Assembly (NCBI RefSeq): GCF_001431405.1
Contig: NZ_LDJL01000002.1
Location: 248,001 to 312,000 of the forward strand
Length of the DNA: 64,000 nucleotides
Direction: 5' to 3'
Source: Pseudoxanthomonas dokdonensis
GTDB taxonomy: Bacteria > Pseudomonadota > Gammaproteobacteria > Xanthomonadales > Xanthomonadaceae
Of this stretch, positions 30,346 to 46,097 are shown piece by piece. The translations under genes were made by a program, and so were the position numbers. Position 1 is the stretch's first letter; each line of letters opens with the position of its first letter. Below the pieces are notes generated by a model. That model was not told the DNA's origin. It did no database searches and saw only the letters and a list, made by a program, of their open reading frames with translations.

Positions 30346-32157
30346 TTATTTCTTTTTTGGAATGTACAGATCGGTGATGGTGCCATCGTGGATCTCGGCC
30401 GACATCGCCACCGACTCGCTCAAGGTCGGATGGGCATGGATGGTGTGGCCGATGTCCTCGGCCTCGGCACCCATCTCGATGGCCAGGCCAATCTCGGCCA
30501 GCAGTTCACCAGCGTGCACGCCGACAATCGCGCCGCCGATGATGCGGTGGGTGGCTTCGTCGAAGATCAGCTTGGTGAAGCCTTCGGTGCGACCGACGCC
30601 GATCGCGCGACCGCTGGCCGCCCACGGGAACTTGGCCACGCCGACCTTCAGGCCCTTGGCCTTGGCTTCGGTTTCGGTCACCCCGACCCAGGCGATTTCC
30701 GGATTGGTGTAGGCCACCGACGGAATTACCCGCGCCACCCACTCCTTCTTCTCGCCAAAGGCGACTTCGGCGGCCAGTTTGCCCTCGTGGGTGGCCTTGT
30801 GCGCCAGCATCGGCTGGCCGACCAGATCACCGATGGCGAAGATATGCGGCACGTTGGTGCGCATCTGGTTGGTGACCGGGATGAAGCCGCGTTCGCTGAC
30901 CTGCACGCCGGCCTTTTCCGCATCCAGCTTGGCCCCGTTCGGCGAGCGGCCGACCGCCACCAGTACCCGGTCGTAGGTGCCGCTTTCCAGTTCCGGCTTC
31001 TGGCCCTCGCTGGCGCTTTCGAAACTGACGGTGATGCCTTTCTTGTCGGCCTTGACTCCGGCGGCCTTGGTCTTCAGATGAACCTGCACGCCCTGCTTCT
31101 TGAGCCGGTCGGCCAGCGGCTTGACCAGATCCTTGTCGGCACCGGGCATCAACTGGTCCATGAATTCGACAACCGTGACCTGGCTGCCCAGGCCGCTGTA
31201 GACGGTCGCCATTTCCAGGCCGATGATGCCGCCGCCGACCACCAGCATCGACTTCGGCACTTCAGCCAGTTCCAGCGCGTCGGTGGAGTCCATCACCCGC
31301 GGGTCGTCCCACGGGAAGTTCGGCAGTTTCACCGCCTGCGAGCCGGCGGCGATGATGCAGTGCTGGAAACGCAGCAACTGGGTACCGCCATCGGCGATGC
31401 TGATTTCCAGCTCGTTGGGCGAGACGAAACGGGCCACGCCGGTGACGGTGCGTACCTTGCGCTGCTTGGCCATGCCGGACAGGCCCTTGGTCAGCTGGCC
31501 GACTACTTTCTGCTTGTACTCGCGCAGCTTGTCCAGGTTGATTTTCGGCTTGCCGAAATCAACGCCGAAATCAGCCGCGTGGGCGGCTTCATCGATTACC
31601 GCAGCCGAATGCAGCAGCGCCTTGGACGGAATGCAGCCGACATTGAGGCAGACACCGCCCAGCGATTCGTAGCGTTCGATCAGCACCGTGTCCATGCCCA
31701 GATCAGCCGAACGGAACGCGGCGGTATAGCCGCCCGGGCCGGCGCCGATGACCACCATCTGGCATTCGATGTCGGCTGCTTTGCCGCTGGCCATCGCCGG
31801 CTTGGGCGCGGCCGGTTCGGCCGGTGCGCGCGGCGAGGGCGCCACCGGCGGCTTGGCGGCCGGGGCTTCGGCCTTGGCCGGCGCGGCCGGCTTGGACTCG
31901 GCTGCCGCGGGGGCGCCTTCGGCTTCCAGGATGGCCACCACGCTGCCTTCGGACAAGGTGTCGCCGAGCTTGACCTTCAGCTCCTTGACCACGCCGGCGG
32001 CCGAGGACGGCACTTCCAGCGTGGCCTTGTCCGATTCCAGGGTGACCAGGCCCTGGTCCTTGGCCACGGTGTCACCCACCGCCACCAGGATCTCGATCAC
32101 CGGCACGTCGGTGTAATCACCGATGTCGGGTACTTTCACTTCCACCGTATTGGCCAT
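30346..32157 (-). CDS. lpdA: Dihydrolipoamide dehydrogenase with N-terminal lipoyl domain (PDH E3)
   Basis: 603 residues from ATG 32157 (ATG 32160 is adjacent). An N-terminal lipoyl domain carries the lipoylated lysine in ESDKATLEV (about K44). An Ala/Pro-rich linker (about 85-125) is followed by FAD-dependent E3: [17 protein letters not shown], redox disulfide [20 protein letters not shown] site [20 protein letters not shown] and C-terminal His-Glu in HAHPTLSE. It reoxidises the lipoyl groups of pyruvate dehydrogenase. The fused lipoyl domain is found in Neisseria, Xanthomonas and relatives. The start overlaps the MscS stop, so translation is coupled. Confidence 0.97.
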
Positions 32158-33269
32158 CATTGTTCTCCAGGGTCCGAGGGGGCGGCCTTGTCGGCCTCGG
32201 CGTCTTCGCGAATCGCGCGGTGGACATCATCCACCGCGTCATTGCGCGCAGGCGCCTGCTTGTTGTGCGGGTTTGAATCAGCATCGCTCGCGGCGGCGTC
32301 CAGCTTCAGCGCACGCAACGCGGCCTTGCCGTCGAGCCCGAACAGGCTGCGCACATGCAGGTCCTGCTGCGGGAACGGAATCTCGATATCGTACTTCTGC
32401 AGCGCGCTGTGCAGCGCCCAGTTGTAAGCGGCCTTGACTGCCGAGGGACGCTTGGTGGCATCGGCGGTCAGCCATACCACCAGTTCGAAGTTCAGGCTGC
32501 TGTCGCCGAATTCGGTCAGCCACACCTGCGGCTTGCGCTTGCCGTCCAGGGCCAGCGTGAAAGGCACTTCGGCGGCCGCTTCCAGCGCGGCCTGCTTGAC
32601 CACTTCCTTGTCGGTGCCATAGGCCACGCCAAAAGGAATGCGCTGGCGGCGCGAGACTTCGCGGTGGGTCCAGTTGACCACCCGGCCGCTGACGAATTCG
32701 GAATTTGGGACCAGGATGTCGATGTTGTCGTTGGTGACGATGGCCGTGGCGCGGATATGGATGTCGCGCACCTCGCCATGCACGCCGGATTCGAGCTCGA
32801 CGAAATCGCCGACCTTCAGCGACTTGTCGAACAGCAGGATCAGCCCGGACACGAAGTTGCTGAAAATCGACTGCAGGCCAAAGCCCAGGCCCACGCCCAG
32901 GCCGCCGGCCAGCAGGCCCAGCTTGCCCACCGGCACCCCGGCCACTTCCAGCGCCAACCAGGCGCCCAGCGCGAACAGCACGTACTGGATGACCCGCGAC
33001 AAGGTGTACAGCGAGGCCTTGTTGGTCTGCGGATGACGATTGGCGTAGCGCCCCAGCAAGGCCTTCAGCAGCCACACCAGCACCCAGGTGACGACCAGCA
33101 CCAGAATCGCGGCAATCAGCTCGCCCACGGTCAGGCCCAGGCCGGAGACGTTGAACAGCTCGCGATTGAGCAGGCTGGCCAGATCCTCGCGCCCCGTGCG
33201 TACCGCGCGGTTGGCGATGCTGCCGGCAGTTTCACCGCCGGCAGCGGCAGCCATCCAGTGCATGTTCAT
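32157..33269 (-). CDS. MscS-family mechanosensitive channel
   Basis: 370 residues. Helices at about 50-70, 90-108 and 112-140, the last being the pore helix with the Gly/Ala pattern [29 protein letters not shown]. Then a beta domain ([38 protein letters not shown]) and an alpha/beta C-terminal domain, with an acidic low-complexity tail. It gates on membrane tension to release solutes. Its stop (TGA) is interlaced with the ATGATG of lpdA, and it lies 73 bp after aceF; an ion channel inside a PDH operon is unexpected. Confidence 0.93.
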
Positions 33270-33342: not shown

Positions 33343-34785
33343 TCACAGCAGGACGCGACGCATGTCCGCCATGACCTGCGCCAGGTAGGCGGTGAAGCGG
33401 GCCGCGGCAGCGCCGTCGATCACACGGTGGTCGTAGCTCAGCGACAACGGCAACATCAGCCGCGGCTGGAACTGCTTGCCGTCCCAGACCGGCTGCATCG
33501 ACGACTTCGATACGCCAAGGATGGCCACTTCCGGGGCATTGACGATCGGCGTGAACGAGGTGCCGCCAATGCCGCCGAGCGAGGAAATGGAGAAGCAGCC
33601 ACCGGACATGTCGGCCGGGCCCAGCTTGCCGTCACGGGCCTTCTTCGACAGCTCGCCCATCTCGCGGGCGATGTCCAGCAGGCCCTTCTTGTCGGTGTCG
33701 CGGATGACCGGCACCACCAGCCCGTTCGGAGTGTCAGCGGCAAAGCCGATGTTGTAGTACTTCTTCAGGGTCAGGTTTTCCGCCGCCGCATCCAGCGATG
33801 CATTGAACTCGGGGAATTTCTTCAGCGCCGCGGTGCTGGCCTTGATCAGGAACGCCAGCATGGTCAGCTTGACCCCGGCCTTTTCGTTTTCCTTGTTCAA
33901 CGCCACCCGCAGGGCTTCCAGCTCGGTGATGTCGGCGCTGTCATGCTGGGTGACGTGCGGAATCATCGCCCAGTTGCGGGCCAGGTTGGCACCGGAAATC
34001 TTCTTGATCCGCGACAGCGGCTGCACTTCGGTCTCGCCGAACTTGCTGAAATCCACCTTCGGCCAGGCCAGCAGGTTGAGACCGCCGCCGGACACGGCCG
34101 GGGCCGTCGCCGAAGAACCGGCGCCGCCGGCCAGCGCGGCCTTGACGTAGCGCTGCACGTCTTCCTTGCTGATCCGGCCACCGCGTTCACTGCCCTTGAC
34201 CTGGTTCAGGTCAACGCCCAGCTCGCGGGCGAACACGCGTACCGACGGACTGGCGTAGGCGACCTTGTCCGGCATCACCCGATCGGCATTGAACTCGACC
34301 GGCGGGCTGTGCGGCGGCGCGGCTTCCGGGTCGATGCCCGGCTTGTCATCGAGCGTGCGCGAGGCCGGCGCCACCGGCGCGGCCTGTTCCTGATCGATGT
34401 CGCGCTGGGCCAGCTTGTCGGGCTTTTCCGACACGTCGACCGGCGGCACCTTGGCGCCGGTCTCGGCGGTCGGGGTTTCCTGCTTGGCGGCCGGCGCCGG
34501 CGCCGCGGCCGGTTGTGCGGCCGGCTTGGCTGCTTCGCCGCCTTCGCTGGTTTCAATCAGCGCGACCACGCCCCCCTCGGACAGCTCATCACCCAGCTTG
34601 ACCTTGAGTTCCTTGATGACGCCGGCAAAGGGCGCAGGCACTTCCAGCGTCGCCTTGTCCGATTCCAGCGTAACCAGGCCCTGGTCCTTGCTGACCGTAT
34701 CGCCGACCGCGACCAACACTTCGATCACCGGGACATCACTGTAGTCACCAATGTCGGGAACCCGTGCTTCCTTGATTTCGGCCAT
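33343..34785 (-). CDS. aceF: Dihydrolipoamide acetyltransferase (PDH E2)
   Basis: 480 residues from ATG 34785 (GGAG upstream). One lipoyl domain (K44 in ESDKATLEV), an Ala/Pro linker, a peripheral-subunit-binding domain YASPSVRVFARELGVDLNQV at about 190-230, and the catalytic core ending with SYDHRVIDGAAAARF (His/Asp pair). It forms the acetyl-transferring core of pyruvate dehydrogenase. No aceE (E1) is adjacent upstream, so E1 must be encoded elsewhere. Confidence 0.97.
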   Translation of the reverse strand: MAEIKEARVPDIGDYSDVPVIEVLVAVGDTVSKDQGLVTLESDKATLEVPAPFAGVIKELKVKLGDELSEGGVVALIETSEGGEAAKPAAQPAAAPAPAAKQETPTAETGAKVPPVDVSEKPDKLAQRDIDQEQAAPVAPASRTLDDKPGIDPEAAPPHSPPVEFNADRVMPDKVAYASPSVRVFARELGVDLNQVKGSERGGRISKEDVQRYVKAALAGGAGSSATAPAVSGGGLNLLAWPKVDFSKFGETEVQPLSRIKKISGANLARNWAMIPHVTQHDSADITELEALRVALNKENEKAGVKLTMLAFLIKASTAALKKFPEFNASLDAAAENLTLKKYYNIGFAADTPNGLVVPVIRDTDKKGLLDIAREMGELSKKARDGKLGPADMSGGCFSISSLGGIGGTSFTPIVNAPEVAILGVSKSSMQPVWDGKQFQPRLMLPLSLSYDHRVIDGAAAARFTAYLAQVMADMRRVLL

Positions 34786-34939
34786 GGGGGGCAACTCCAG
34801 CAATTCAAAAAATAGAGGAACCCCTATTGTGGCCAGTCACGCGCCGTGCGCCAACCTTTGCCGCGATATTTTTGGCTGAATGTCACTTGTCGCCGGGACA
34901 AAGCGCGCGCAACGGCCCGGATCGCGTGCCAGCGCCGTT

Positions 34940-36351: not shown

Positions 36352-36803
36352 GCAGACGGGCCCTGCCAAGGCCGCACCACCAGCAACGCACCGCCAATCA
36401 CAAGCAACGCGCCGAGCACGCGTGTCGCGTCGATGGGCTGCCGCGGATGCAGCACACCGTAATGATCCAGCAGCAGTGACCCCACCAGCTGGCCGAAAAC
36501 CACCAAGCAGATGAGCGGTGCCGCACCCATCCGCGGAATCAACAATGTGGCCGCGGCGACGTACACGGCGCCAATGACGCCTCCAATCCAAGCCCACCAC
36601 GGCACCTTGGCCAGTGCCTGCGGATCGAACGAGGGCCTGGAGGCCAGCCACCAGCCAACCAGTACCAAGGTGCCAACCAGGAACGACATCATCGCGGCGA
36701 ACACAGGGCCAAATGTCTGTCGCCCCAGACTGGCATTGATCAGTGCCTGCAGCGGCAACATCATGCCGATCACAATCGCCAGCATCAGTCCACCTGCATT
36801 CAT
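36348..36803 (-). CDS. DMT-superfamily YdcZ/DUF606 membrane protein
   Basis: 151 residues, five hydrophobic helices, with the DUF606 signatures LPLQALINASLGRQTFGPVFAA and LICLVVFGQLVGSLLLDHYG. ATG 36803 gives the family start. Family members are small transporters of unknown cargo. Translationally coupled to the DNA glycosylase gene. Confidence 0.87.
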   Translation of the reverse strand: MNAGGLMLAIVIGMMLPLQALINASLGRQTFGPVFAAMMSFLVGTLVLVGWWLASRPSFDPQALAKVPWWAWIGGVIGAVYVAAATLLIPRMGAAPLICLVVFGQLVGSLLLDHYGVLHPRQPIDATRVLGALLVIGGALLVVRPWQGPSA

Positions 36804-36921
36804 TGCGTCAATCCCGGGTTGGCCAAACCGGACCATACGGCAAATCCCGCCGGGTGCACATCCAGCCGGTGCCGGGTAATGGCAGCAGACCAATGCGCCC
36901 TCCGTCGTGGGATGGCCGGGG

Positions 36922-38160
36922 TCAGATCGCGATCGGGCGCAGCGATTGCCGGCGCAACAATGGAATCGTCAGCAGCAGCAGAGCAATCGGCAGCAGCGAC
37001 AGATAGAACGCGGTCTGGCCACCGAAGCGGGCGAACACCTGGCCGGTGATGAACGATCCGGTGGTCCCGCCCAGTGCCGAGAACACCACGATCAAACCGG
37101 TCATCGCCGCTTGCCGCGGCTTCGGCAAGGCGCTCAGTACCACCGAGTTGATCGCCGGGTAGATCGGCGCCATGAACAAGCCAGTCAACGGCAGCACATA
37201 CGCCACCGGCGGTGCGTGCTGCCAGCCATCCCGGGCCGGCGGAACGGTCTGCGCCGCCCACGGCAGGACCACGATGATCAGCGCCGCCGTCGCCAGCAGG
37301 CACAGGATCAGCAACCAGTGCCACGGCACGAACCGCAGCAGCACGCCCGCGCCCAGCCGGCCAAGCGCGGTGGTGGCCGCGAACAGGCTGGCCAGCTGCA
37401 CGCTGGTGACCGTGGACAGGTGCAGGATTTCCTTGTTGAAGGTCGGCAACCAGGTGTTGATGCCCTGTTCGATCAGCACGTAGACGAACGCCGAGACGAT
37501 GAACACCAGCACCAGCGGCAGCGACAGCAGCTTGAACATGTCGAGGAACGACTGGCCCACGCCGTGGCTGTCGCGGGCCCCGGATTCGTCCAGCGTGCTC
37601 ATCGACAACAGCACGATGACCGCCACCGACAGCGCCGCCAGCAGCCAGTACACCGACAGCCATATCGGGTCCTGCGGGCTCTGCTGCAGATCAATGAAGG
37701 CGCCGAACAACCACGGACCGATCAGCACGCCGACCATGAAACAGCCTTCGACCACGTTGGTCAGGCTGGCATGCGCGGCCCGGTCGGCGGTCAGCAATCC
37801 GATGCTCGAATACACCGCCACCTTGACCAGCGCGAAGGCAACGCCGGTGGTCGCCAGCATCACCTTGACCATCCAGTAGGCATCCAGCAGCGGCATCGCC
37901 GCGCTGGCAACCGCCACCAGCGCCAGGCCCAGGATCATGCCGCGCCGGTAGCCCAGCCGCGGCAGCCACGAGGCGACCAGGAACGACACCAGCGCAATCG
38001 GCAGGTCCTTGAACGCATCCAGCACGCTGGTGGCCTGCTTGCTGGCGCCGAAGGCCACCTGTGATTGCAGGATCAAGGTGCCGACGCTGTTGAGCAGCAT
38101 GGCGAAGATCATGTAGGCCAGGATCATTCCCAGGATCATCCTGGCGCGGTGGTGCTTCAT
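36922..38160 (-). CDS. MFS sugar permease
   Basis: 412 residues, 12 predicted helices. The first half contains the MFS A-loop SWLPRLGYRRGMILGLAL; a central loop after helix 6 ends at about residue 200. ATG 38160 was chosen because GAAGGAG lies 7 bases upstream. It follows the TonB receptor (81 bp) and the phosphorylase gene in the same direction, so it is the likely inner-membrane importer of the disaccharide handled by the GH65 enzyme (inference). Confidence 0.85.
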   Translation of the reverse strand: MKHHRARMILGMILAYMIFAMLLNSVGTLILQSQVAFGASKQATSVLDAFKDLPIALVSFLVASWLPRLGYRRGMILGLALVAVASAAMPLLDAYWMVKVMLATTGVAFALVKVAVYSSIGLLTADRAAHASLTNVVEGCFMVGVLIGPWLFGAFIDLQQSPQDPIWLSVYWLLAALSVAVIVLLSMSTLDESGARDSHGVGQSFLDMFKLLSLPLVLVFIVSAFVYVLIEQGINTWLPTFNKEILHLSTVTSVQLASLFAATTALGRLGAGVLLRFVPWHWLLILCLLATAALIIVVLPWAAQTVPPARDGWQHAPPVAYVLPLTGLFMAPIYPAINSVVLSALPKPRQAAMTGLIVVFSALGGTTGSFITGQVFARFGGQTAFYLSLLPIALLLLTIPLLRRQSLRPIAI

Positions 38161-38241
38161 TGCCACTCCTTCATTGCCAGCGGTTGCGGCCGCCGCCATT
38201 GCCAGGTGGAAACCACGCCGGCAACGGCGGTGCCGGTTCCA

Positions 38242-40650
38242 TTACCACTTGTAAGCGGCGGACACCAGATAGGACGGACCCTCGATTGGCCGGCCCATGA
38301 ACACGCCGCTGGCATCGGTGGCATTGCCGATGACGCGGGCGTTGCCTTCGGTCAGGCCGATTTCATCGCTGACATTGCGGCCGCTGAGGGTGAACTCCCA
38401 GTGGTCGCCGACATGCGCGCTGGCACCGATGTCCCAGGTCTGGTACGACGGCAGCACCTGGCCGTTGGCCGGATCCGAATAGCGATCACCGACATAGGTG
38501 TAGGTGGTGAAGATTTTCAGGTCGCCCCAGGCCATCGGCCAGTAGTAGCTTGGTGTCAGCCTGCCGCGGATCTCCGGCTGCCGCACCACTTCATTGCCGC
38601 TGTAGTCGGCGGTCAGGCTGCCAAACTCATCGTAGTTGGCCTTCAACCAGGTCACGTTCCAGGCCAGCTCGAAACCGCCGGCCGGGCGTACCGCGCCTTC
38701 GAACTCGACGCCGTAGGCAGACGAATCACCGACCAGCACGATATTGCTGCCGTCGGCCGCGAATGCCTGGAACGGCAGGCCGCTGAATTCGTTGTAGAAC
38801 GCCGTCAGGTACATGTCGTAGCTGTCGCCGCCACCTTTCAGCCCCAGCTCGTACTGGTCAACCTCCTGGGTGCCGGTGACGTTGTCGCGCAGATTATCGA
38901 ACGAGGGCATCTTGAAGCCGGAGTTGGCACGCGCGAACAAGCTGTAGTCTTCATTGAGGGTGAAGTTGGCGCCGACCGTCCATGACACGTCGTTGTCGGT
39001 CTGGTCGATGCCGCGTGGCGTGGTCGCGACCGAGGTGTTGTTGTCGTACAGGGTGTCGGGATTGCCATCCAGATCGACGGTTACCGGATCCAGCACCAGC
39101 CCATCGACCTGCTGGGTTTCGTAGCGGACGCCGGCATCCAGGCGCAGGCGGTCGTTGACTGTCCACTCATCGGAAGCGAACAGCGCGATATTGGTCCCGG
39201 TGTAGTCGCCGCGCAGGCCGAAGTTGGTGGTGGCGACCAGGCCATCACGACTGGCGGTCTGTCCATTGGCCAGATCGATGTCGACCCGGCGCGCGTTGTT
39301 CTCGGCGGTCAGCAACAGGTTGTTGCCCAGGTGCCAGTTGTCGTGCGACTCATAGCGTGCGTAGTAGCTGCCGACGGTGAAGGTGTTGTTGTCGGTCAGA
39401 TCCAGGCTCAGGCGGAAATCGTTGGTGAACGACTTGATCTTCTTCTCGACCACCCACCAGCCGGCGGCCAGCACCTGCTGGTCGGGCGACACCGCGCCAT
39501 CACCATTGCTGAAATAGCCACTGCCGGCGACCCCACCGTAGTTGTCCTCGATGTAGGACGACAGCGTTTGCGGGTTGCCGCCGGTGAACAGTGCATAGGT
39601 CGGCGCCTCGCCGTCGAGGAAGTTGAAGCGGTCACTGACTGTCCAGTTGTCTCCATACAGATCCAGCGAGCCACCGAACACCGACACTTCCACGCCACGG
39701 CCATTGCCCAGGTCACGGCCGATCATTTCCCCATCCGGGCCGATCGGCAGCGAGATGCGGCGGAAGTCATTGCTCAGCAGCGTGCCGGTAGTCGCATCCA
39801 GTCCGGGAAAATCACTGATGTCCTTGCCGTTGTTACGCGAGGTCAGCGGGATCGCGGTGTAGAACACGTTGTCGTCAGCGGTGTGCCGCGCATACAGGCT
39901 GAATTCGCCTTCGGCCCAGCGCTTGCTGAGGGTGGCGCTGAGCTGGCCACCCTTGTCGGACGGGAAGCCCGCGTCACGGACGCCGTCGGTTTCGCGATAG
40001 AAGCCGCCAACGCTGTAGTACCAGCCGGAATCGGCCTTCAACGGGCCACCGCTGTAAACATCCACGCGTTGCAGGTTGTCACTGCCCAGGGTCAGGCGCA
40101 CGCTGCCTTCGGGGATGTCATCGCCTTTCTTCTGGATGAAGTTGACGGTTACCCCGGGCTGGCCGTTGGAGAAAATCGGACTGGTACCACCGCGCAAGGC
40201 CTCGACCCGTTGCACGGTGTCATCGATGCGGAACAAGGTGCTGTTTTCCAGGAATGAAAGCGTTGAAGGTGGATAGATTGGCGAGCCATCCAGCTGCAGC
40301 GTGAAGAACGGCGCATCGCCTTCGGACGGCATGCCGCGCACGAACACGTTGGCACCGGTGCTGCCACCACTGGGCTCGACCCAGACCCCGGGCACGATTT
40401 TCAACAGATCGGCGGTACTGGTCGGCGCGGCTTCCTGGATCTGCTCCGGGGTGGCGGTACTGATCGAGAAACTGGCATCACGCTTGCGCAGGCCCTTGAA
40501 CTTGGCCGTGCCACTGACCACCACCGCATCCAGGGTGGTCGCCTCCTGTTCGCCGGTGGTCGGGGTCGCCTCCTGGGCCTGGACCAGTGGCGCCAGCGCG
40601 GTGGCGACGGCCACGGATAACGCGTATCGAATCAGTTTGGTTGTTTTCAT
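38242..40650 (-). CDS. TonB-dependent outer-membrane receptor
   Basis: 802 residues. Signal peptide ends at about VQAQEA; TonB box-like TTLDAVVVSG at about 38-47; plug domain with PGVWVEPSGGSTGANVFVRG and VEALRGGTSPIFSNGQPGVTV; then a 22-strand barrel ending SYLVSAAYKW. GGAGGG precedes the ATG by 6 bases. Linked to a GH65 phosphorylase and MFS permease rather than to siderophore genes and without a Fur-like site, it should import an oligosaccharide. Confidence 0.92.
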   Translation of the reverse strand: MKTTKLIRYALSVAVATALAPLVQAQEATPTTGEQEATTLDAVVVSGTAKFKGLRKRDASFSISTATPEQIQEAAPTSTADLLKIVPGVWVEPSGGSTGANVFVRGMPSEGDAPFFTLQLDGSPIYPPSTLSFLENSTLFRIDDTVQRVEALRGGTSPIFSNGQPGVTVNFIQKKGDDIPEGSVRLTLGSDNLQRVDVYSGGPLKADSGWYYSVGGFYRETDGVRDAGFPSDKGGQLSATLSKRWAEGEFSLYARHTADDNVFYTAIPLTSRNNGKDISDFPGLDATTGTLLSNDFRRISLPIGPDGEMIGRDLGNGRGVEVSVFGGSLDLYGDNWTVSDRFNFLDGEAPTYALFTGGNPQTLSSYIEDNYGGVAGSGYFSNGDGAVSPDQQVLAAGWWVVEKKIKSFTNDFRLSLDLTDNNTFTVGSYYARYESHDNWHLGNNLLLTAENNARRVDIDLANGQTASRDGLVATTNFGLRGDYTGTNIALFASDEWTVNDRLRLDAGVRYETQQVDGLVLDPVTVDLDGNPDTLYDNNTSVATTPRGIDQTDNDVSWTVGANFTLNEDYSLFARANSGFKMPSFDNLRDNVTGTQEVDQYELGLKGGGDSYDMYLTAFYNEFSGLPFQAFAADGSNIVLVGDSSAYGVEFEGAVRPAGGFELAWNVTWLKANYDEFGSLTADYSGNEVVRQPEIRGRLTPSYYWPMAWGDLKIFTTYTYVGDRYSDPANGQVLPSYQTWDIGASAHVGDHWEFTLSGRNVSDEIGLTEGNARVIGNATDASGVFMGRPIEGPSYLVSAAYKW

Positions 40651-40724
40651 GGTGTTCCCTCCACTCTCTCTTTTTTATTCACAGGTTGGTACCGCAGCGC
40701 GCGCGTCCCTCCGGCCGCGCGGGC

Positions 40725-43700
40725 TCAAAACGCAATCAACTGGTGGATGTCGAAGTCGGCGATGGTTGCCAGCACGCGATCGGCGTCGACCAGTTGCGCC
40801 GGCTCGCCGATGCCGATCGCGGCCATGCCAGCACGCTTGATCGCCTGGATGCCGGCGACCGCGTCTTCCACGCCGATGCAGGCCTCTGCCGGCACCGCCA
40901 GCGCCTGCGCCGCGGCCAGGAAAATATCCGGCGCTGGCTTGGGGAAGGCGACGGCGGCCGGATCGGCGACGTGGTCGAAGGCCGCCGCAATGCCCAGCCG
41001 TTGCAGCAACAGCGGTGCGTTGCGACTGGCCGAGGCCAGGCCGATGCGGATGCCGGCCTGGCGCAGATCACGCAGCAGCTTGGCCACGCCGGGAAACAGA
41101 TCGTCAGGGCCAAACTGGCTGATGGCACTGACGTAATACTGGTTCTTGCGCGCGGCCAGCTGCTGCTTCTCGGCCGTGCTGTACTGGCGCTGGCTGCGTT
41201 CGAGGATGATCTCCAGCGAGGACATCCGGTCGACGCCCTTGAGACGCTCGTTGATCTGATGATCAAACGGCACGCCGATCTCGTCGGCCAGCCGCTTCCA
41301 GGCCTGGTAATGGGTATGCGCGGTATCGGTCAGCACGCCGTCCAGATCAAAGATGACCGCCTGGCACCGGCGTGGAAAAACGCTGCCAGACGCGTCTGGC
41401 GGGTGGTCGCCAGCATGGGCTGCGCGATGGGTCCTGCCCGGCTTCAGCAGCACCAGCTGACCGTGGTGATGGATCGCCAGCGCGTCACCGTCGAGCACGG
41501 TATAGAACGCTGCGTCCGCTTCCACCCGCAGCCGCAGGCGGCGACCGCGCCAGCCCAGGGTGAACGCATAAGCCGGCCACGCAGCGGGCAGGCTCGGGGC
41601 GAAGGTCAGTTCGCCATCGCGTACCCGCATGCCGGCAAAGCCCTGTACCAGCCCCAGCCAGCTGCCGGCCATCGCCGCCATGTGCACGCCGTGGCCGGTG
41701 TTGCGATGCAGATCGTCCAGATCAACGCGCAGGCTTTCATTGAAATAGTGCCATGCCTTGTCGGCGTGCCCGACCTCGCCTGCCAGGATCCCGAACACGC
41801 ACGCCGACAGGGTCGAGTCGTGGGTGGTCACGGCCTCGTAATAGTCGAAGCTGCGGCGTTTGCAGTCGCCATCGAAATCATCGCCGGCCAGCACCAGCGC
41901 CATCACCGCATCAGCCTGTTTGCAGATCTGGTAGCGGTACAGGGTCAGCGGGTGGTAATCCAGCAACAGCGGCCGATGCTCACCCGGTTGCGGCGGGAAC
42001 GGCCAGTGCGGTTTGTCGAGAAAGCCATCGTCCTGGGCGACGATGCCATGGCGCTCGTCATGCGGCAGGTACATATTGGCGGCCGCCAGCGCCCAGCCCG
42101 CGACTTCGTCGGCATCCAGGTGCAGGCGCGTGGCAAGTTCGGCCGCCGCCTGCGGCGCTTTCCGCTGCAGCAGTTCCCAGATCTGCACCGCGCGCCGCAG
42201 GTGTTGCTGCGCCATCCGGTTGGTGTAGAAATTGTTGTCGACCATCGCCGTGTATTCGTCCGGCCCGGTCACTTCGTGGATGCAGAAGGCACCGTTGCGG
42301 CGCGGATTGAAGTGGCCGACCTGCGGCCAGATGCGCGCGGTTTCGAACAGGATCTCGGCACCGGCCTGGCAGATGAAATCGATGTCGCCGGTGGCATCCC
42401 AGTACAGGCCGACCCCATAGGCGACCGCGGCATTGATGTGATAAGCCGCCGACCCGCTGGGGTAATGGGCCGAGCACTCACCGCCGGCAATCGTGCGCCA
42501 TGCATACAGCGCGCCCGAGCGATGGTTCATTTCGCGGGCATGCGCACGCGCCGCGTCCAGCGTGGCATGCCGGTACTGCAGCATGCTTCGCGCTACCTCC
42601 GGTGCGGTAAAGACCATGACCGGCAGCACGAAGGCTTCGGTATCCCAGAAGCAGTGGCCTTCATAGCCCTCGCCGGTCAGGCCCTTGGCGGCGGTGCCGG
42701 TATGACCGTCGTGGCCGGCGGACTGCAACAGGTGGAACAGGTTGAAACGCAGGGCCTGCTCGGTACGCGGATCGCCTTCGATGTCGATGTCGGCCCGCGC
42801 CCAGAAACGGTCCAGGGACTGCGCCTGCGATGCCGCCATGCCATCGAAACCCTGCGGCATCGCCGCGTCGAGCGCCTCATCCAGGCCCGATGGCTGCGCG
42901 CCTCTGGCAGCCGCGTACGCCACCAGTTTCTCCAGCCACAGCGCCTGGCCAGGCTGCAACTGGCCGCGGTAGCGCTGGCTGACGCATTGCGCTTCCACCA
43001 CCGCGGTGTCAAACGCCAACCCGTCGGCAACGCGATGACGTTGCTGACAGGCGACGCTGATGCCGCTGTGATGGGTACGCTGCAGCAGCGAGGCGGCGAG
43101 CGCATCGGCTTGTCCGGCAACCGTGGCCAGGCCACGCACCGAATGCACGCCAATCCTGGGATCATCGCCCTGCCCGGCCAGTTGCCGCTGGCCATCGATC
43201 ATCGACACCAGGCTCATCGGACCGCTGTAATCGAGCGACTGCACGCGGTAGCGGATGGCCAGCAGCGACGGTGGTTGGTCGCCGGCGCCAGCTTGTCCGG
43301 TAAACGGCAGCACGCGTTCGGCGTCGACCAGCAAGCTTTGACCGCTGGCGGTGCGCAGTTGCATCCGCCGGCGCAACACGCCGCTGCGAAAATCCAGCAC
43401 CCGCTCGAAATACTGGCAATCGGCGCTGGACAGCTCCAGGCATTCGCCGCCCAGCCAGATCTGGATGCGGGTCGCCTCGGCCACCGGTACCCGGGTGTCG
43501 GTGCTGCGGGCAAAGCCGGGCAGTTTCTCGTGGTAGTGAATCGGATGCTGTTCGTATACCGAGGCCATGAAACTGCCGCCGCTGTCGGCCCCTGCTTCCT
43601 CCAATCCACCACGCACGCCCAACTGGCCATTGGCCAGTGCGAACAGGGTTCCATCGCGCGCCCGGTTCCGCTCCAGCTCCGCGCAGCCTTGCTGCGACAG

Positions 43701-43757
43701 CTGCCAAGGATCGAGGGATTGCGGCGATTGATTGGCGGCCCACGAATCGCCTGCCAT
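40725..43757 (-). CDS. GH65 disaccharide phosphorylase fused to beta-phosphoglucomutase
   Basis: 1010 residues in one frame. Residues 1-785 are a GH65 inverting alpha-glucoside phosphorylase: N-terminal beta-sandwich (FALANGQLGVRGG), (alpha/alpha)6 barrel with GYEGHCFWDTEAFVLP, acid motif HEVTGPDEYTAMVDNN (E501 in GPDEY), KQADAVMAL and phosphate-side HDSTLSACVFGILAGEVG. Residues 798-1010 are a HAD beta-phosphoglucomutase with nucleophile D804 and D806 in VIFDLDGVLTDT, ASASRNA and FPKPAPDIF. The fusion would turn a disaccharide plus phosphate into beta-glucose-1-phosphate and directly into glucose-6-phosphate. Substrate (maltose, kojibiose, nigerose or trehalose) is not decidable from sequence. 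Confidence 0.95.
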   Translation of the reverse strand: MAGDSWAANQSPQSLDPWQLSQQGCAELERNRARDGTLFALANGQLGVRGGLEEAGADSGGSFMASVYEQHPIHYHEKLPGFARSTDTRVPVAEATRIQIWLGGECLELSSADCQYFERVLDFRSGVLRRRMQLRTASGQSLLVDAERVLPFTGQAGAGDQPPSLLAIRYRVQSLDYSGPMSLVSMIDGQRQLAGQGDDPRIGVHSVRGLATVAGQADALAASLLQRTHHSGISVACQQRHRVADGLAFDTAVVEAQCVSQRYRGQLQPGQALWLEKLVAYAAARGAQPSGLDEALDAAMPQGFDGMAASQAQSLDRFWARADIDIEGDPRTEQALRFNLFHLLQSAGHDGHTGTAAKGLTGEGYEGHCFWDTEAFVLPVMVFTAPEVARSMLQYRHATLDAARAHAREMNHRSGALYAWRTIAGGECSAHYPSGSAAYHINAAVAYGVGLYWDATGDIDFICQAGAEILFETARIWPQVGHFNPRRNGAFCIHEVTGPDEYTAMVDNNFYTNRMAQQHLRRAVQIWELLQRKAPQAAAELATRLHLDADEVAGWALAAANMYLPHDERHGIVAQDDGFLDKPHWPFPPQPGEHRPLLLDYHPLTLYRYQICKQADAVMALVLAGDDFDGDCKRRSFDYYEAVTTHDSTLSACVFGILAGEVGHADKAWHYFNESLRVDLDDLHRNTGHGVHMAAMAGSWLGLVQGFAGMRVRDGELTFAPSLPAAWPAYAFTLGWRGRRLRLRVEADAAFYTVLDGDALAIHHHGQLVLLKPGRTHRAAHAGDHPPDASGSVFPRRCQAVIFDLDGVLTDTAHTHYQAWKRLADEIGVPFDHQINERLKGVDRMSSLEIILERSQRQYSTAEKQQLAARKNQYYVSAISQFGPDDLFPGVAKLLRDLRQAGIRIGLASASRNAPLLLQRLGIAAAFDHVADPAAVAFPKPAPDIFLAAAQALAVPAEACIGVEDAVAGIQAIKRAGMAAIGIGEPAQLVDADRVLATIADFDIHQLIAF

Positions 43758-43815
43758 GACTCCACACCTTCTGAAAGACCCGCCCGATTCGGCGTGGTGG
43801 GCACGCTATGGCGTC

Positions 43816-43847
43816 AATGTTATCGATGTCAAGACATCGATAACATT
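43816..43847. promoter_or_regulatory. Palindromic LacI-type operator over the phosphorylase promoter
   Basis: Two perfect 15-bp arms (AATGTTATCGATGTC and its complement) around a 2-bp centre. Each arm contains the CG-centred ATCGAT typical of LacI-family half-operators, so two regulator dimers could bind side by side. On the minus strand a perfect -35 TTGACA (revcomp of 43827-43832) spans the centre, about 70 bp from the GH65 start codon. The LacI-type gene lies just upstream. Confidence 0.85.
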
Positions 43848-43952
43848 TGTGCTGGCAAACACGATCGCAGCGCGCCCATGTCGGCATTGCACAGGCCAGA
43901 CTGATGCGAGAATTGAGTAAAAAGTTATTTATTTACAGTAGCTTGCAATTCA

Positions 43953-43967
43953 CTGACGTCGCGTCAG
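43953..43967. promoter_or_regulatory. Inverted repeat CTGACG-TCG-CGTCAG in the lacI-phosphorylase gap
   Basis: A 6+3+6 palindrome, 72 bp after the lacI-type stop on the minus strand and flanked by an AT-rich block (43921-43940). It could be a terminator stem for the regulator gene or a second regulatory site. No T tract is visible. Confidence 0.35.
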
Positions 43968-44038
43968 CAATCCCGGCGGCAGGCCAGCGAAGCCGCCTTG
44001 CCCATCGCATTGCAACAATCCACAGCGCGGCTGCGGGC

Positions 44039-45073
44039 TCAGGTCGAGCGCACTACCAGATGGGTCGGCAGCGTCGCCGACTGCACGGACTGGCCATCGA
44101 TCAAATCGCAGATCTTGCGTGCCAGCAGCACGCCGGCCTCGGTGAAGTTCTGGTGCACCGAGCTCAACGGTGGCACGTACGTCGCCCCCAGCGGGGTGTC
44201 GTCATAGCCGACCACGGTGACGTCTTCCGGCACCCGGCGATGGTTTTCAATCAGCGCACGGATCGCGCCGATCGCCAGCAGGTCGCTGGCGGCGAACAGC
44301 GCGTCGGTCTGCGGCTGGGTCTGCAGCAATTGGCGCACGACCGCGGCGCCGGCGCTGACGGTGAAATTGTCGATTGCCGGCGTCAGCGCGGTGATGCCGC
44401 GCGACTGCAATACGCTGTTGAAGCCTTCCAGCCGCTCGGCGAATTCACCATGCGCCGGATCACCGAGAAACACCGGTCGTTGCCGGCCCAGGGCCAGGAA
44501 GCGCTCGGCCACCAGTGCACCGCCGCGGAAATTGTCGCTGCCGACCACCACCTGTGACTGGTGCCGGCTGACCGCGCCCCACACCACCAGCGGCCGGCCC
44601 CAGCGCTGCACGCTGTGCATGGCATCTTCATGCGCGCCCTGGCCGAGCAGGATCACGCCATCGGCGGCCTGCACGTTGGGCAGGGTCTCGCCAGCCAGCG
44701 AGGTCAGCAACACGCTGTAGCCGGCCGACGTCAGCTGCTGGGTGATTCCCCCCAGCAGGTCCAGCGGATACGGCCCCGACATCTGCCGCTCCGGGGTCGG
44801 TTTCATCTCGACCACCACCGCCACGGTCATGCTCCGCCGCAGCCGCAGGTTGCGGGCACTGGCGTTGAATGCATAGCCGTACTGCCTGGCGACCTCGCGG
44901 ATCCGCGCGCGGGTTTCCGGATTGACCAGCGGACTGTCGCGCAGCGCCCGAGAGACGGTGATCGCCGACACCCCGGCGACCCGGGCCAGGTCGGCCATGG
45001 TCGGGTTGTTCCCCAGGCTGTCCTTGTCGACCGGAGTAGCGGGGGCGTCTGATGCACGGCGGGGGGGCTTCAT
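44039..45073 (-). CDS. LacI-family transcriptional regulator of the disaccharide locus
   Basis: About 344 residues from ATG 45073 (GTG 45109 also possible). After a basic, unstructured N-terminus the LacI helix-turn-helix is MADLARVAGVSAITVSRALR, with hinge helix NASARNLRLRR, then a periplasmic-binding-protein-like ligand domain (GITQQLTSAGYSVLLTS, LLAIGAIRAL, VVGYDDTPLGATYVPPLSSV). It is transcribed in the same direction as, and immediately upstream of, the phosphorylase gene and its operator, so it is the expected repressor or activator. Confidence 0.92.
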   Translation of the reverse strand: MKPPRRASDAPATPVDKDSLGNNPTMADLARVAGVSAITVSRALRDSPLVNPETRARIREVARQYGYAFNASARNLRLRRSMTVAVVVEMKPTPERQMSGPYPLDLLGGITQQLTSAGYSVLLTSLAGETLPNVQAADGVILLGQGAHEDAMHSVQRWGRPLVVWGAVSRHQSQVVVGSDNFRGGALVAERFLALGRQRPVFLGDPAHGEFAERLEGFNSVLQSRGITALTPAIDNFTVSAGAAVVRQLLQTQPQTDALFAASDLLAIGAIRALIENHRRVPEDVTVVGYDDTPLGATYVPPLSSVHQNFTEAGVLLARKICDLIDGQSVQSATLPTHLVVRST

Positions 45074-45443
45074 CGGTTCAGTTTCGCATGAGCCATCGCC
45101 GGACGACACAGGCCAACAAGCCTTGAATCACATTAACGGCGTGCCGAAGACGTCCAGGGCGCCCACCGACGATGAACGAAGTGGCCTCATTTTCGATTTC
45201 CTTCAGCCTGCATGCAGATCGTTGGCGCCCACCGGACGCACATTCGTCGCCTGCATGTTCAGATTTTGTGCGTTGCCGCACGGGTTTGTCGAAGGCCGGT
45301 GAAATCCGATGACGATTGCTGAAGCCCGGACCTCACGTTTGCTCGAAATTCATTTCGCAGGGCGGGTTTCATTCATCTGTTAATCCGTACTGTGCGCTCG
45401 CCCCTGAAGGGGTTTCTATAAAAACATATGTGAAGGAGTCCCC
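45074..45443. other. 370-bp region between lacI-type gene and ompW
   Basis: No gene. It holds the divergent promoters. On the ompW side there is a small hairpin CCCCTGAAGGGG (45401-45412) followed by TATAAA (45417-45422) without a good -35, then GAAGGAG. Confidence 0.5.
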
Positions 45444-46097
45444 ATGAATTCGATCAATCGTCTGAGCCTGGCTCTGGTTGCGTCACTTGCGTTTGCCCCC
45501 GCCGCCTTCGCGTCCGATGCGTTCAGCTGGAATGACGGCAGCGTGCAGAAGCGTTTCGCCGTGGTCGGTGGTTACGCCGTGCAGGACAACTCGTCCGACG
45601 CGCTGAAGGAACTGAACAACGCCGACCTCGGCGGTGGCTCCGCTGCCACCCTGAGCTTCAGCTGGTACATCACCCCGGCCATCGCGCTGGAATTGTGGGG
45701 CACCGACAAGTTCGAAAATGGCGTGCGCACCCGTGACGCCGGCCACGTCGGCAACATCGACAGCCAGCCGGTCGCCCTGAGCGGCCAGTACCACTTCCGT
45801 GCACCGGACGCGACCATCCGTCCGTTCGTTGGCCTGGGCTACTACCAGACCAACTACAGCGGCGGCGGCAACCTGGACTACAGCGCCGACGGTGAAGGTG
45901 GCCATCTGGGCCTGGAAGACGGCAAGGGTGCGATCGGCACCGTCGGTGTCGACTTCAACATCAACCCGAACTGGTTTGTCCGCGCCGATGCGCGTTACAT
46001 GGACTCCAACGCCGACATCACCCTCAACGGCGAAAGCATCGGTGATACCGATCTGAACCCGTGGACCGTGGGCGTGGGCATCGGCGGTCGCTTCTAA
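45444..46097 (+). CDS. OmpW-family outer-membrane protein
   Basis: 217 residues. Signal peptide MNSINRLSLALVASLAFAPAAFAS; OmpW barrel with TLSFSWYITPAIALELWGTD, PVALSGQYHF, IRPFVGLGYYQTNYSGGG, WFVRADARYMD and terminal GVGIGGRF. OmpW-type eight-strand barrels form narrow hydrophobic channels. Strong GAAGGAG 5 bases before the ATG, which suggests high expression. Monocistronic. Confidence 0.92.
   Translation: MNSINRLSLALVASLAFAPAAFASDAFSWNDGSVQKRFAVVGGYAVQDNSSDALKELNNADLGGGSAATLSFSWYITPAIALELWGTDKFENGVRTRDAGHVGNIDSQPVALSGQYHFRAPDATIRPFVGLGYYQTNYSGGGNLDYSADGEGGHLGLEDGKGAIGTVGVDFNINPNWFVRADARYMDSNADITLNGESIGDTDLNPWTVGVGIGGRF

Follow-up and report, generated by a model that had tools for sequence, protein, structure and literature searches.

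Neighboring genes for a disaccharide phosphorylase and a β-phosphoglucomutase (β-PGM) under the control of a LacI-type regulator are already known, as exemplified by ycjT-ycjU and YcjW of E. coli in the part of PMC6599011 available. Here we describe a locus of Pseudoxanthomonas dokdonensis in which a GH65 phosphorylase and a β-PGM are fused in one protein. The locus lies within a stretch of 64,000 nucleotides (contig NZ_LDJL01000002.1, positions 248,001 to 312,000), which we refer to as the window and whose positions are used throughout. Our analysis suggests that the fused gene very probably belongs to a LacI-controlled operon for scavenging external trehalose, which would be cleaved to glucose and β-glucose-1-phosphate, the latter being converted to glucose-6-phosphate.

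The fusion is encoded by a single intact frame on the minus strand, which runs from an ATG at 43757 to a stop at 40725 without an internal stop, comprises 1010 amino acids and has a guanine-cytosine (GC) content of 0.71/0.47/0.80 at the three codon positions. The GH65 half is complete, with the three GH65 Pfam domains in order (residues 32-770), while the second half carries a Pfam HAD hydrolase match at residues 799-977 and the NCBIfam β-phosphoglucomutase equivalog TIGR01990, whose score over residues 799-984 is 255.7 bits (cut-off 189.4). Among solved structures, the first part comes closest in sequence to 3wiq (kojibiose phosphorylase) and 1h54 (maltose phosphorylase), and the second to 1lvh (Lactococcus β-PGM). 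An AlphaFold2 model of the entire protein, based on 53 aligned sequences, has a mean predicted local distance difference test score (pLDDT) of 91.3 and a predicted template modeling score (pTM) of 0.80. Values of pLDDT below 50 are restricted to residues 1-7 and residues 784-792, the latter between the two enzymes. The GH65 part of the model matches 6w0p (Z 44.4; root-mean-square deviation, rmsd, 2.7 over 739 residues) and 1h54 (Z 41.1), and the β-PGM part matches 8q1d (Z 31.7; rmsd 1.4 over 214 residues). Frame, Pfam, NCBIfam and in-frame relatives agree on the 1010-residue fusion that a preliminary description had proposed from the letters and open reading frames. A longer open frame overlaps the gene in antisense (40587-43904, plus strand, 1105 amino acids); its stretch at 40725-43757 has no Pfam match at E 0.01, so that it looks like the usual shadow of GC-rich DNA and was discarded as a real gene.

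The distribution of the fusion, which the preliminary description had left to a survey, was examined in family, order and phylum samples that overlap, the window's own genome being counted in the first two. In the family, 24 of the 198 genomes match, comprising 21 with the fused form, two with split genes (G070, G144) and one with a distant GH65 alone (G018). The order sample yields 45 matching genomes out of 299, 44 fused and one split, and the phylum sample 14 out of 398: three fused, seven with separate neighbors, three with GH65 only, and G768, in which the two genes are in phase and parted by a stop. At genus level the occurrence is patchy: five genomes match, counting that of the window, and at least four do not. 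Among 69 named loci, 32 are fused and 21 are adjacent split pairs, in keeping with the earlier statement that the two activities are normally separate neighboring genes; two further loci have the PGM-like gene first, seven lack an adjacent PGM, three are cut by contig ends and four are distant. Because the scan was seeded with peptides encoded in the window itself, these counts favor close relatives. A fused copy was also seen on a 1-Mb plasmid of Niveispirillum cyanobacteriorum (L120, 6848-9892), with relatives of the LacI, receptor and major facilitator superfamily (MFS) genes nearby; among the plasmid records listed, 27 of 30 are annotated as two separate genes.

These samples also bear on whether a sequencing or assembly frameshift has joined two genes, an error for which the preliminary description had allowed. 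Several split relatives show an ATGA overlap, so a single insertion or deletion could produce such a join. However, the two parts are joined in frame, without a stop inside, in 44 order genomes, 21 of the 198 family genomes and 32 named loci, metagenome-assembled genomes included. An artifact is refuted by these relatives, which read through the same junction in one frame, and its probability is negligible.

The residues expected for catalysis were examined in an alignment (A1) of the window, 24 of the 32 fused named loci, seven GH65-only rows and 21 stop-to-stop rows. The stop-to-stop rows carry letters from outside genes, which enter the all-row counts and not those for the 25 fused rows (the window plus the 24 fused loci). 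In the GH65 half, a GPDEY block at residues 498-502 places E501 at the general-acid position, which is E in 25 of 25 fused rows and in 43 of 44 letters over all rows. The phosphate site of GH65 phosphorylases consists of Lys, Ser, Ser and His in the available portion of PMC8626586, and K358, S648, T649 (Thr for the second Ser) and H692 occupy these positions here, which points to a phosphorylase and led us to reject a hydrolase. Residue 649 is T in 24 fused rows and S in one, whereas E501, K358, S648, H692, D804, D806, K940, E964 and D965 are invariant in all 25. In the β-PGM part, D804, D806, T812, H816, R844, K871, S909, S911, K940, E964 and D965 align with functional residues of the L. lactis enzyme. 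Because the catalytic residues are kept in both halves, both parts look active; the earlier claim of two intact active sites (GPDEY; D804/D806) is consistent with residues that are present and conserved in the fused rows.

Published fingerprints allow the substrate, previously left as an unspecified α-disaccharide, to be narrowed. The available text of PMC8537180 gives six specificity positions, numbered as in the kojibiose phosphorylase of Caldicellulosiruptor (CsKP): 64/392/394/402/416/585. In that text, TRIGPP belongs to the T. bispora trehalose phosphorylase, which made trehalose in assay; EEAPxx stands for kojibiose, an assayed EEAPWS enzyme having acted as a kojibiose phosphorylase; a DQGQDE enzyme made trehalose-6-phosphate in assay; KV[MF]NES is the maltose phosphorylase fingerprint; and the T. 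brockii trehalose phosphorylase has "SAY" in loop 3. The window protein reads TRIAPP (T88, R421, I423, A430, P433, P603), where MAFFT places R421, I423, A430 and P603 at CsKP 392, 394, 402 and 585, and it has S-A-H where the T. brockii enzyme has S-A-Y. Across the 25 fused rows, five of the six positions (T, R, I, P, P) do not vary, and A occurs in 24. Given the resemblance of TRIAPP to TRIGPP and of S-A-H to S-A-Y, the fingerprint selects trehalose among the sugars listed in the preliminary description, making it most likely the substrate of the GH65 half. Other known specificities fit less well. Kojibiose phosphorylase was rejected for the lack of EEAPxx and W-E-T, the window having R at 392, I at 394 and A at 402; maltose phosphorylase for the lack of both KV[MF]NES and the HNE loop; and trehalose-6-phosphate phosphorylase for the lack of DQGQDE. 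Nigerose is excluded less firmly, since the nigerose phosphorylase fingerprint is not in the material consulted from PMC8537180.

The surroundings of the fused gene are consistent with uptake of an external sugar (Table 1). On the same strand, the order is LacI regulator, fusion, TonB-dependent receptor and MFS permease. In a survey of flanks (blastp at 1e-15 over half the query, with fetched flanks of up to 8 kb), relatives of all three neighbors flank 31 of the 32 fused named loci, the exception being a spirochaete (L091) with a LacI-type gene only; in all six Rhodanobacter loci the LacI gene is reversed. The linkage to a TonB receptor and an MFS permease described earlier is thus supported by Pfam in the window and kept in those 31 loci.

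Table 1. Coordinates of the fused gene, its domains and the neighboring features in the window.
Feature	Position	Strand	Basis and remarks
LacI-family regulator	44039..45109	-	Pfam LacI and Peripla_BP_3; start codon not settled
Tandem palindromic operator-like site, TGTTATCGATGTCTTGACATCGATAACA	43818-43845	-	Located between LacI gene and fusion; TTGACA hexamer in the second half
Fused gene: GH65 α-glucoside phosphorylase (predicted trehalose phosphorylase) and β-phosphoglucomutase, 1010 aa	40725..43757	-	Frame, Pfam, NCBIfam, relatives, AlphaFold2 model
GH65 N-terminal domain (Glyco_hydro_65N), residues 32-283	42909..43664	-	Pfam PF03636
GH65 catalytic barrel (65m), residues 337-700; E501, K358, S648, T649, H692	41658..42749	-	Pfam PF03632, E 3.7e-116
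GH65 C-terminal domain (65C), residues 710-770	41448..41630	-	Pfam PF03633
Linker, residues 784-792	41382..41408	-	Low model confidence (AlphaFold2 pLDDT)
β-Phosphoglucomutase domain, residues 799-984; D804, D806, K940, E964, D965	40806..41363	-	TIGR01990 above cut-off
TonB-dependent receptor, predicted outer-membrane uptake	38242..40650	-	Pfam TonB_dep_Rec_b-barrel and Plug
MFS permease, predicted inner-membrane uptake	36922..38199	-	Pfam MFS_1; NCBIfam match (TsgA) below cut-off only

The operator-like site TGTTATCGATGTCTTGACATCGATAACA consists of two overlapping palindromic sites 14 bp apart, 28 bp in all, and occurs once in the window and in 0 of 100 shuffles. When 36 upstream regions were scored against a 16-base consensus taken from Rhodanobacter and L052, 34 reached 12 to 16 of 16, including those of the window, the alphaproteobacterial fused loci L052 and L057, and Niveispirillum. 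Both Luteimonas regions reach 11 of 16, with one half-site kept, and in Sphingomonas colocasiae (L056) the site is present but lacks the tandem spacing. With 200 plain shuffles per region, the score was reached 0 times for 33 regions, once for L048 and twice for each Luteimonas, a control that is lenient because the consensus was chosen from the same regions. The tandem palindrome is common to Gamma- and Alphaproteobacteria, together with the LacI regulator and the fused gene. Genome-wide, a looser half-site occurs at nine places and the form TGTTATCGATGTCA only at this locus, so the regulator looks local. A scan of 36500-45500 for σ70 promoters and terminators returned no promoter at the palindrome, and sites no more frequent than in shuffles.

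The window's genome (3.55 Mb, 99.97% complete) contains one GH65 and a glucokinase; neither a GH37 trehalase nor OtsA was found in it. With TreS and TreY models matching only below cut-off, the genome seems to consume trehalose rather than make it, and the sugar would probably be external in origin. In the proposed pathway, external trehalose would enter through the TonB-dependent receptor and then the MFS permease, both transport roles being predicted. The GH65 half would use phosphate to convert trehalose to glucose and β-glucose-1-phosphate, with inversion at C1. The C-terminal β-PGM half would then form glucose-6-phosphate via a phospho-aspartate (D804) and a glucose-1,6-bisphosphate intermediate, a mechanism taken over from the family. 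Free glucose would pass to the separate glucokinase, and the LacI protein may repress at the palindrome. The preliminary description had one glucose obtained at no ATP cost; by phosphorolysis, one ATP per disaccharide would be saved if the predicted activity holds, a figure for the cleavage step and not for transport.

Several observations weigh against trehalose scavenging. Two of the six fingerprint positions, 64 and 416, turn on the alignment. At CsKP 64, the MAFFT column holds E in the window and T88 lies opposite a CsKP gap; the position was read as T because T88 pairs with the Lys of maltose phosphorylase (GKVVNA), as the published motif requires. At CsKP 416, MAFFT leaves a gap and pairs P433 with a different CsKP residue; the alignment with the PDB sequences sets S434 opposite CsKP T417, so that P433 was placed at 416 by eye. 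At 585, maltose phosphorylase shows W in the alignment and S in the available text of PMC8537180, which suggests that the column may be off by one. Position 402 is A, as in the SAY loop of T. brockii, rather than the G of the T. bispora motif, and the T. bispora (TbGP) and T. brockii (TreP) enzymes were compared through published motifs and not by direct sequence alignment. In the β-PGM part, K117 of Lactococcus is replaced by R at residue 912; among the 25 fused rows, this position is R in 22 and K in three. The MFS permease and the receptor carry no substrate-specific signature. The sub-cut-off matches to TreS and TreY hit a GH13 frame and, more weakly, one other place, and the search for trehalose synthesis in this genome covered only the OtsA, TreS and TreY routes. 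Finally, a kojibiose-hydrolase-like GH65 in at least two Rhodanobacter operons hints at a larger α-1,2-linked glucoside in those operons.

One alternative is that the GH65 half acts mainly on another α-glucoside, such as kojibiose, nigerose, maltose or a glucosylated trehalose (e.g., selaginose), with the same route to glucose-6-phosphate. Fingerprints predict specificity rather than prove it, and extra GH65 frames lie downstream of the MFS gene in five of the six Rhodanobacter loci. However, the window's loop, W-R-T-I ... S-A-H ... P, has neither the published W-E-T of kojibiose nor the H-N-E of maltose phosphorylases, and its genome has a single GH65. We consider this alternative unlikely and retain trehalose as the favored substrate.

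The extra Rhodanobacter frames are present in L044, L045, L046, L049 and L050, and not in L047 within the fetched stretch; they adjoin the MFS gene in L044, L046 and L050, whereas in L045 and L049 roughly 1 kb separates them from it. For three of them (L044 14947-18943, L046 14750-17323), the best NCBIfam match is kojibiose hydrolase, below cut-off, and by eye the same frames show signal-peptide-like stretches, so that they look secreted, and a W-E-A ... T-P loop. Such enzymes may trim α-1,2-glucosides to trehalose, selaginose being perhaps one such glucoside, and the outer substrate of these operons may accordingly be a trehalose glucosylated at α-1,2. Elsewhere in the window, a dihydrolipoyl dehydrogenase with an N-terminal lipoyl domain was noted at 30346-32160, with an MscS-type channel gene between it and the E2 gene at 33343-34803.

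As to what the fusion provides, it must yield equal amounts of both activities, and this fixed 1:1 supply is most likely its benefit, with a presumed kinetic gain. β-Glucose-1-phosphate is a dead-end intermediate that needs β-PGM and is not notably unstable; nothing was found in favor of the word "unstable" used in the preliminary description, though no search aimed at it was made. Its local retention is possible. A metabolic channel that passes it between the active sites without release, as the preliminary description envisaged, would be an addition to the trehalose pathway and not a substitute for it. Covalent tethering and the fused form in 44 of the 45 matching order genomes are consistent with such a channel. 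In contrast, the linker varies in sequence and length, with pLDDT below 50 at residues 784-792, and two separate chains are encoded in the similar operons of L053, L056 and L074, with Luteimonas, Sphingomonas colocasiae and others split. The case for channeling is therefore not sustained, and we regard it as rather improbable.

The split relatives suggest how the fusion may have arisen. All nine split junctions that were read have a candidate PGM start on the GH65 stop or 16 bases before it: L053, L056, L058, L060 and L080 have a four-base ATGA overlap, L074 has GTGA, and in the Lachnospiraceae loci L063, L065 and L071 an ATG precedes the GH65 stop codon by 16 bases. With starts and stops so arranged, fusion would be a small mutational step. 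In L102 (genome G768), GH65 and PGM are in phase, with TAA and one codon before the PGM ATG, and relatives of the LacI and MFS genes adjoin. In two actinobacterial pairs (L061 7974-11188, L070 7977-11206) the order is inverted: a PGM-like open frame comes first and overlaps the beginning of the GH65 frame.

A quick tree was computed from 63 GH65 sequences and two outgroups, the CsKP and LbMP stretches; L001-L027, L051/L069/L084 (cut by contig ends) and L093-L096 (GH65 below 200 bits) were left out. It used LG+G4 without a mixture model, with SH-aLRT support only, and gave long-branch warnings. The fused state changes four times on this tree, at least three of the changes being forced by starred branches, and each change may be read as a gain or a loss. 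A starred set of 32, in which 30 rows are fused, takes in the split Luteimonas, and the spirochaete L091 stands apart as a fused case of its own. The linker is often FPR in Lysobacteraceae and different in Rhodanobacter, which fits more than one fusion event without proving it. A more elaborate scenario would have the bifunctional enzyme keep β-glucose-1-phosphate and glucose-1,6-bisphosphate local to one particle, with repeated origins from overlapping or in-phase pairs in different bacterial groups, the same LacI-operator module throughout the proteobacterial cases, and a secreted kojibiase-like GH65 in Rhodanobacter trimming α-1,2-glucosylated trehalose before uptake; we consider it doubtful as a whole.

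Literature searches of titles and abstract openings found no GH65-β-PGM fusion; they covered few subscription journals and are weak evidence of absence. Similarly, the available portions of PMC3899277, PMC6599011, PMC7178133, PMC8626586, PMC3916237 and PMC8537180 mention no such fusion, and the words "fused" and "fusion" are absent from those of PMC8950772 and PMC10969515. As the fusion is visible in many public genomes, it is unremarked in the searched literature rather than unseen. Its recognition aids the annotation of trehalose utilization in Lysobacterales and in certain sphingomonads, and the fused, overlapping and in-phase split forms beside related regulators offer a natural set for asking what gene fusion buys. 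A ready-made conversion of trehalose to glucose-6-phosphate by a single polypeptide is also suggested, with possible use in in vitro cascades; for maltose, such cascades add β-PGM to a phosphorylase, as described in the accessible part of PMC10521662.

Compared with known systems, the GH65 half resembles the inverting trehalose phosphorylases (EC 2.4.1.64) of Thermobispora bispora (TbGP) and Thermoanaerobacter brockii (TreP) in family, general acid, phosphate site and fingerprint, as far as the published material available describes them. It differs from them in the C-terminal β-PGM, a module that the available text of PMC8537180 does not mention. The second half shares 48% identity with L. 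lactis PgmB (1lvh) in the structure alignment and keeps the equivalents of D8, D10, R49, K76, S114, S116, K145, E169 and D170, whereas here it is part of a larger chain and has R for K117. Mycobacterial OtsB1 (Rv2006) also holds HAD and GH65 modules in one chain, with the HAD first and an additional trehalose-phosphatase module. The actinobacterial PGM-GH65 pairs (L061, L070) resemble it in their overlapping frames and differ in their opposite order. The E. coli ycjT-ycjU system, which presumably relies on another transporter type, shares the two-step logic and the local LacI-type control. Its genes are separate and its sugar is kojibiose, according to the part of PMC6599011 available. Being real and common among relatives, the fusion represents a useful variation on known chemistry and not a system of a new kind.

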